Below are positions 2,084-3,589 of a DNA stretch of 37,411 nt, piece by piece. Position numbers and translations under genes: made by a program. The stretch is taken from contig JANJWV010000027.1 of assembly GCA_024709365.1 (NCBI GenBank), forward strand, positions 1-37,411. The letters are read 5' to 3'. Each line of letters starts with the position of its first letter. The first letter of the stretch is position 1. The notes below the pieces were generated by a model. The model ran no database searches, was not told the DNA's origin, and saw only the letters and a program-made list of their open reading frames with translations. This DNA is from Desulfomicrobium sp. GTDB taxonomy: Bacteria; Desulfobacterota; Desulfovibrionia; Desulfovibrionales; Desulfomicrobiaceae.

Positions 2084-2268
2084 GCGACAGATCTCAGGAA
2101 AACTCACCGAGCCACGCGGTGCTGCGCGGCGTCATCGTCGGCGGCTCCATCGGCATGATCGCCAGCTGGTTCGGATACGAGCCGGTCAAGGCCTTCTTCA
2201 TGGGCATCGTCTGCGGCATCTTCGCGGCCTTTACCAGGATCATGGCGGACAGGCTGCGCAAGAAATAA
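2080..2268 (+). CDS. Small two-helix membrane protein
   Basis: This 62-residue protein starts in the ATGA that ends the PEP synthase-like gene, so it is probably translated by coupling with it. A short polar N-terminus is followed by two hydrophobic, glycine-rich segments (about residues 14-32 and 36-53) and a basic C-terminus (RIMADRLRKK), which fits an inner-membrane hairpin with a cytoplasmic positive tail. I do not recognise the family. The coupling suggests a role with the upstream enzyme, but that is inference only. Confidence 0.6.
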   Translation: MSDRSQENSPSHAVLRGVIVGGSIGMIASWFGYEPVKAFFMGIVCGIFAAFTRIMADRLRKK

Positions 2269-2271
2269 TCC

Positions 2272-2300
2272 TTGACTTCTTCAGCAGCGGGACTATTAAT
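2272..2300 (+). promoter_or_regulatory. Sigma70-type promoter of the candidate RNA gene
   Basis: A -35 element TTGACT (2272-2277) is followed after 16 bp by TATTAAT (2294-2300) in a locally AT-richer stretch, directly after the stop codon at 2268. Initiation is predicted near 2306, exactly where the first hairpin of the candidate RNA begins. Confidence 0.65.
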
Positions 2301-2305
2301 CCTAA

Positions 2306-2725
2306 TCAAGAACCACCGCATGCGGACTGAGCAGGTTCTTGAATCCATGGCGATGTCTTCAAGGAAACTGACGACAACATCTCTAAAGCAGAGGCGTGTT
2401 GCAAGGTAACCTGGAAAAATCCTCGAAACACAGGTGTGTAGGCAGTCAACACAATCAGGGAACATCTTTCCGAATCGAAAATCGAGGCGCGTTGGTTGGA
2501 AACCGTGAACCAGTAATGTGGTCATGGCGCGTTGGAAGGAAACCCCGAAGTGAACCAGGAAACAGACTGTTGAGGCGTTTATTCCGGTAAATCCGTACAG
2601 GAGTACTCGTGGCGCCGGCCCCAATCCGGCGCGAAACGGTTCACAAGCATCACATCGAATCTGGTTTAACGACATTCCGGTTGATCAGGGGCGGAAGAAA
2701 CGACATCTTCCGCCCCTCTCTTTTT
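2306..2725 (+). ncRNA. Candidate stand-alone small RNA of about 420 nt
   Basis: This is the longest gene-free stretch in the window. It has its own promoter (2272-2300), a 5' hairpin with 8-bp arms at 2307-2314 and 2334-2341, internal hairpins (GCGCCGG/CCGGCGC at 2612-2618 and 2625-2631), and a perfect intrinsic terminator at 2688-2725. No reading frame inside has a convincing start and composition. GGA triplets occur about ten times. Five are in A/C-R-GGA contexts, one in a perfect GUAC-AGGA-GUAC hairpin (2595-2606), a good CsrA-type binding site. A unit is repeated: GGCGCGTTGG at 2486-2495 and 2526-2535, and GTGAACCAG at 2505-2513 and 2550-2558. It does not match tmRNA, 6S, RNase P or SRP RNA by any landmark I could find. 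A CsrA-sequestering RNA is one possibility; a long leader of the 2909 gene is less likely because of the terminator. Confidence 0.55.
2688..2725 (+). terminator. Intrinsic terminator of the candidate RNA
   Basis: Perfect 11-bp stem (2688-2698 with 2706-2716, arms GGGGCGGAAGA and TCTTCCGCCCC), 7-nt loop, then a pyrimidine run ending in five Ts (2717-2725). Confidence 0.85.
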
Positions 2726-2908: not shown

Positions 2909-3589
2909 ATGTACTGTAAAAAATGCAAATTTCACTCCTTTGACCATGTCGCGGCCTGCCCCAAGTGCGGAGCGGACTGGGAAGAGACCCGCAAGGCCCT
3001 CTACCTGAGCTGGATCACCTCCAGCGGCGTCAACTGGGTGGCCCCGATCTCCGCCCAGGCGGCCCCCGCTGCTTCCGCGGCCACTCCCGCAATGGTCATG
3101 GACGTCTCCGGCGGCGAGGACGAACTCTCCCACCTCATCGCCCCGCCCCCGACACCGCCGTCCTCCAAGGATGCCGACATCGACGTTTCGCTCTTTCCTG
3201 AACTGGACTTTTCCACCGAAGAGGTGACTGCCAAGCCGCCGGCACCGTCAGCAGCAAAACCCCCGACCAAGGCGGACGATGATCTTTTCCTCGACTCCAT
3301 CCCCGTCGAGGACATGCCCGAGTTGGACTTCAGCGCGTCCTTCGATGCGCCGGCACAACCCGCGCCGCCCATCTCGAAGCCCAAACGCGAGGATCTCTTC
3401 ATTCCCGAGCTCGAAGAGATGCTCGCGCCCCTGACGGAAGAGCCGCGGCAGAACCCGGCTCCGGCCAAGAAATCCCCCATGGCCGAAGAAACGGAGATTC
3501 TGCTCGATTTCGGCGACGACTCCTCCAGGGGCAACACGAAGGAAGACATTCCCTTCCTCACCCTGGAAGACACGATCAAGCCTTCGTAG
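2909..3589 (+). CDS. Zinc-ribbon protein with long acidic, proline-rich tail
   Basis: The 226-residue protein begins with a four-cysteine zinc ribbon (C3, C6, C17, C20; CKKC and CPKC knuckles), a typical small zinc-binding fold. The remainder is low-complexity, rich in Pro, Ala, Asp and Glu, and probably disordered. A short motif recurs: PELDFS at residues 97-102 and 137-142, with PELEE at 166-170 and a related ILLDF at 197-201. No membrane segment is visible. Such repeated acidic motifs usually act as docking peptides, but the partner is unknown. I do not recognise a characterised family. It converges on the hydrolase gene with 8 bp between stop codons. Confidence 0.75.
   Translation: MYCKKCKFHSFDHVAACPKCGADWEETRKALYLSWITSSGVNWVAPISAQAAPAASAATPAMVMDVSGGEDELSHLIAPPPTPPSSKDADIDVSLFPELDFSTEEVTAKPPAPSAAKPPTKADDDLFLDSIPVEDMPELDFSASFDAPAQPAPPISKPKREDLFIPELEEMLAPLTEEPRQNPAPAKKSPMAEETEILLDFGDDSSRGNTKEDIPFLTLEDTIKPS

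Follow-up and report, generated by a model that had tools for sequence, protein, structure and literature searches.

CsrB and RsmZ are protein decoys that titrate CsrA. Many bacterial sRNAs regulate mRNAs through base pairing, and large structured bacterial RNAs such as OLE, GOLLD, ROOL, HEARO and raiA fall in a size range similar to that of the RNA described below. Sulfate-reducing bacteria matter for corrosion, sulfide production and gut health, and in the literature that we searched their regulatory RNAs appear almost solely as genome-wide predictions; a computational ncRNA survey exists for Oleidesulfovibrio alaskensis (PMC11124144). We analyzed a 37,411-nt stretch of DNA (the window) from a Desulfomicrobium genome of 3.65 Mb, in which an initial annotation had proposed an undescribed regulatory RNA of about 420 nt.

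A predicted RNA gene with its own promoter and terminator

Positions 2272-2725 of the plus strand are predicted to be a free-standing noncoding RNA gene with its own promoter and terminator, lying between an ORF of 62 aa (2080-2268) and a gene at 2909-3589. The promoter comprises a -35 box TTGACT (2272-2277), a 16-nt spacer and a -10 box TATTAA (2294-2299; TATTAAT to 2300), with the -35 box beginning 3 nt past the TAA (2266-2268) of the 62-aa ORF, exactly as the initial annotation had it. A strict sigma-70 consensus scan returned 0 promoter-like sites at this position because the -10 box is weak, and sequence comparison found both boxes retained among the homologues as TTGACtt and TAyTAn. The RNA itself would run for ~420 nt from a predicted start at 2306 to the end of a T run at 2725, and its assignment as noncoding is based on conservation at the same site and the lack of a conserved ORF.

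The transcript would open with a hairpin (2306-2342) in which TCAAGAACC (2306-2314) pairs with GGTTCTTGA (2334-2342) around the apical palindrome CCGCATGCGG (2316-2325). The hairpin does sit at the predicted start as had been described, with a stem of 9 bp and not 8 bp. Among 12 homologues (9 distinct), 5 of 10 pairs changed on both sides, for instance GAACC/GGTTC to GAGCC/GGCTC and CCG..CGG to ACA..TGT. None of 500 shuffles matched the covariation score; the arms were aligned by hand, a procedure that favors the structure. The palindrome remains palindromic among relatives, as ACGCATGCGT, CCGTATACGG and ACACATGTGT, and could serve either in a kissing contact of the RNA or, lying just past the start, as an operator in the DNA. 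At the other end, the intrinsic terminator (2687-2725) consists of a stem (2687-2698/2706-2717), a 7-nt loop and then the T run CTCTTTTT. Its end at 2725 agrees with the earlier description; its stem has 12 bp, one more than the 11 bp given there. In this stem 5 of 11 pairs were altered on both sides, and again 0 of 500 shuffles reached the covariation score. The comparison of the same intergenic region in relatives, which the initial annotation had suggested, thus uncovered compensatory changes in both the 5' hairpin and the terminator; an absence of hairpin conservation in close relatives, which it had named as evidence against an RNA, is the opposite of what was found. A further hairpin near the 3' end, GCGCCGG/CCGGCGC (2612-2632; arms 2612-2618 and 2626-2632), has a shorter stem in most homologues.

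The folding energy of the whole transcript in this single genome is unexceptional (z = -1.66; 8 of 100 shuffles as good), so the case for an RNA rests on conservation and not on energy. RNAalifold applied to 10 close homologues gave mostly invariant pairs with little covariation in the repeat core described below and no convincing helix, and we therefore claim no structure for the repeats. Two local folds were considered there. A GNRA hairpin formed by GGNAAC was rejected on inspection, its closing pairs not being kept. A GUU/AAC mini-hairpin around each motif looks plausible in some copies, involves mostly invariant letters with mismatches elsewhere, and is not claimed.

The interior had been described as having no credible reading frame, and this was borne out, as no ORF is conserved among the homologues. 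ORFs of 29-64 aa can be found mechanically, as they would be in the mRNA of a small protein, but for every plus-strand ORF of at least 10 aa with a widely kept start, no more than 2 of 9 homologues retain start and stop together, and indels break the frame among homologues. The chance that the region is such an mRNA is very small. An antisense ORF of 193 aa (2094-2675, minus strand) was set aside, its length not being conserved.

Searching Rfam 15 with covariance models, as had also been proposed, yielded no family for the 2272-2725 RNA at gathering or relaxed thresholds, in line with the earlier remark that it resembles none of the usual long bacterial RNAs. 6S RNA (RF00013) gave no match here; the 6S RNA of this genome lies elsewhere (G000:C4:6887-7069). 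No description of the RNA was found in the open-access literature searched, and as far as Rfam 15 and those papers extend the word "undescribed" is upheld. With conservation at the locus in 13 of 16 genomes, the compensatory changes, the missing ORF and the lack of an Rfam match, we concur with the reading as a free-standing regulatory-type RNA gene. Two features that the initial annotation did not contain, a repeated bipartite motif and relatives in other genera, are presented below.

Conservation within Desulfomicrobium

BLAST detected the RNA unit in 10 of 16 Desulfomicrobium genomes, the window genome included, with the others 71-97% identical, and found no copy in the family's other genera. 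These ten loci have common neighbor genes. Reading downstream from the upstream 62-aa gene recovered three further copies beyond the reach of BLAST (L049, L052 and L053), which keep the promoter layout, the 5' CAAGA(A/G)CC, the repeats and the terminator. In all, 13 of 16 genomes have the unit at this site, and in the other three it is missing downstream of the 62-aa gene (L048, L050 and L051). A sequence profile (profile R1) also counts 13 of 16, a figure that is not independent, as the profile was trained on those same 13 genomes. Between the two main Desulfomicrobium clades the core (2351-2600) is 71% identical, versus 36% for the adjacent spacer (2728-2830). One of the genomes without the RNA (L048, G011) retains CTTGACTTTTT at the promoter position after the 62-aa ORF, a probable remnant of a lost RNA gene.

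The upstream 62-aa ORF encodes a small protein, probably of the membrane, which has relatives in 69 of 150 Desulfovibrionales genomes and no family in Pfam. On the downstream side, a second conserved block (2831-2908), 73% identical between clades and containing TTGCATAAGAGAAGC and a TATAGAC-like sequence, lies right before the gene at 2909-3589 and is probably the promoter or leader of that gene itself. Neighbors are constant within Desulfomicrobium and include PEP-synthase-like and zinc-ribbon-like genes, as would be the case if the RNA belonged to the transcript of an adjacent gene, either as a leader or attenuator for the gene downstream or as a tail made by read-through from the gene upstream. 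However, a strong conserved terminator stands ~180 bp ahead of the downstream ATG, the 2831-2908 block resembles that gene's own promoter, and other genera have other neighbors: rubredoxin in much of g22, and in both g19 and g57 an unnamed gene. We consider a leader or tail very improbable, and since neighbor genes differ between lineages, the RNA probably acts in trans.

A repeated bipartite motif

Inside the RNA a bipartite motif, YGU-N5-GGNAAC, recurs four or five times at intervals of ~40-53 nt, with near-copies at ~2390, 2431, 2484, 2524 and 2573. Repeat R1 (TGT-TGCAA-GGTAAC, 2397-2410), repeat R3 (CGT-TGGTT-GGAAAC, 2490-2503) and repeat R4 (CGT-TGGAA-GGAAAC, 2530-2543) are exact, the last two being also matched by the cross-genus profile described below. 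Repeat R2 (TGT-AGGCA-GTCAAC, 2437-2450) is imperfect, and repeat R5 (GGCG-TTT-ATTCC-GGTAAA, 2574-2591) is degenerate yet near-invariant in 10 close homologues; by eye it resembles the final repeat (GAGGC...GGCAAC) of the g22 RNAs. All five lie on the plus strand. The exact motif YGTN5GGNAAC occurs 3 times in the window; the mean over shuffles is 0.022, and none of 3000 has as many. Over all sets the spacer is N5 in 65 copies, N6 in 8, N7 in 4, N4 in 1 and N3 in 0. The counts come from the data that served to define motif and spacing, which makes these figures descriptive and not a test. No exact copies were found in three Desulfomicrobium loci (L018, L052 and L053), and no second repeat cluster was found elsewhere in the genome from which the window comes.

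Repeats of this kind could be multiple copies of one seed (GGCGYGUUGG/GGNAAC) in a trans-acting base-pairing sRNA, a mode that is common among bacterial sRNAs and that would fit the GC-rich conserved stretch ahead of YGU in the Desulfomicrobium repeats. Across genera, however, the conserved letters fall into two blocks, YGU and GGNAAC, and a seed would poorly tolerate the variable positions that separate and interrupt these blocks. Matches to the repeat beyond the locus were also at control level on both strands: the genome holds 9 and 8 on its two strands versus 6 and 7 for the control, and three of the 9 are this RNA itself. Protein recognition suits the motif better than base pairing because the third letter of GGNAAC varies (A, U or C). 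A base-pairing sRNA thus seems unlikely to us, if still a serious alternative.

Relatives in other genera

Motif-bearing, free-standing RNA-like units were found in four other genera (g22, g19, g30 and g57), which belong to a second family of bacteria, with 2 to 5 motif copies per RNA across genera. The first leads were weak matches to the Desulfomicrobium-only profile R1, one in g57 (L085, a unit of ~200 nt), two in g19 (L086 and L090, ~500 nt each) and two in g22 (L087 and L089); over 65 kb, E-values were 5.8e-5 for L085, 2.2e-4 for L086 and 3e-4 for L097. The g19, g30 and g57 units span ~200-550 nt. The g22 form, recovered in ~30 genomes by BLAST from L087 and a second profile (profile R2), has a TTGC-promoter, a length of ~165 nt, three repeats, a GC-rich terminator and a near-invariant long-range CAAAGGA/UCCUUUG pairing; in L097, which belongs to it, the 3 motif copies are spaced by exactly 48 nt. 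Two-repeat forms of ~110 nt, with a closing stem as in the g22 form, occur in the same genus (L180 and L181), and the family thus also shrinks. Profile R3, a model of two adjacent repeats drawn from every group, added a unit in g30 (L204); its strong matches to its own members are expected and partly circular. Its weak matches L200-L203, L205, L206 and L208-L212 were put down to chance, being mostly coding sequence or missing the architecture, and the profile R1 matches L084, L088, L091 and L093-L096 were likewise rejected. Rfam gave no match at any of the loci scanned.

On the strength of these short motifs, all groups are likely homologous, convergence on a shared motif being the conceivable alternative, and the Desulfomicrobium RNA and those of the other genera are probably one undescribed RNA family of the Desulfovibrionales. 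A role as the structural or scaffold component of a larger ribonucleoprotein, in which the repeats would make tertiary or protein contacts and not titrate a protein, would suit the long-range pairing and the hairpins of the g22 form, as well as the apical palindrome of Desulfomicrobium, which is maintained by paired changes as in kissing or dimer contacts. Such a role is rather improbable, as the RNA differs greatly from genus to genus in length (~165 to 550 nt) and in repeat number and has been lost from three Desulfomicrobium genomes.

A possible decoy for an RNA-binding protein

The variable copy number, the single short and sharply spaced motif and the length of the RNA make up a CsrB-like design, and because of this we favor a decoy. 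In that model the transcript would begin at ~2306 with the 5' hairpin as a cap, display its four or five YGU-N5-GGNAAC copies along a core in which no long helix is convincing, and end at the intrinsic terminator. Each copy would be a putative binding site for one RNA-binding protein, which the RNA would draw off lower-copy sites in mRNAs, as CsrB and RsmZ do with CsrA. That the RNA is a trans-acting noncoding RNA of an undescribed Desulfovibrionales family and a multi-site decoy titrating such a protein is, in our estimate, an evenly balanced proposition. More tentatively, the order may possess a control system parallel to CsrA/CsrB, in which a family of multi-repeat RNAs, as dedicated decoys, titrates a new Desulfovibrionales regulator that recognizes YGU-N5-GGNAAC. 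A conserved multi-repeat RNA with so sharp a motif offers a ready bait for finding an RNA-binding regulator in this group.

One perfect motif (GGCGCGTCGGCAGGCAAC) was observed ahead of the ATG of a small membrane-like protein in another genome (L207; G328:C139, ~78904-78960, minus strand). This single weak case may mark an mRNA that the presumed RNA-binding protein targets, or may be due to chance.

Comparison with known RNAs

CsrA itself might be the titrated protein, making the RNA a member of the CsrB/RsmZ/CsrC type: CsrA is encoded in the host genome, the architecture is alike (several short motifs in a free-standing unit with its own terminator), and the terminator region gave a sub-threshold match to CsrC (8.9 bits versus a cut-off of 61). 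Yet GGA is not enriched in the RNA (10 observed versus 9.45 in shuffles), ANGGA occurs 3 times versus 2.6 in shuffles, short of the excess over chance that a CsrB/RsmZ-type decoy would show, and GGC or GGU can replace GGA in the repeated motif. None of the Rfam models for CsrB, CsrC, RsmX, RsmY and RsmZ matched at gathering score, and all 16 Desulfomicrobium genomes have CsrA, even the three that lack the RNA. We regard sequestration of CsrA as highly unlikely.

With 6S RNA (RF00013) the locus has in common that it encodes a bacterial noncoding RNA in its own, here predicted, transcription unit. It is unlike OLE, GOLLD, ROOL, HEARO and raiA in its tandem short motifs and the lack of an Rfam match at gathering score. 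CsrB, CsrC and RsmX/Y/Z of gammaproteobacteria resemble it in being free-standing sRNAs with a promoter, a terminator and a repeated short motif, with a copy number that varies between species and no conserved ORF, whereas the motif here is YGU-N5-GGNAAC and not ANGGA, and the RNA is found in Desulfovibrionales. If the decoy model is correct, this would be an independent instance of the CsrB-type design.
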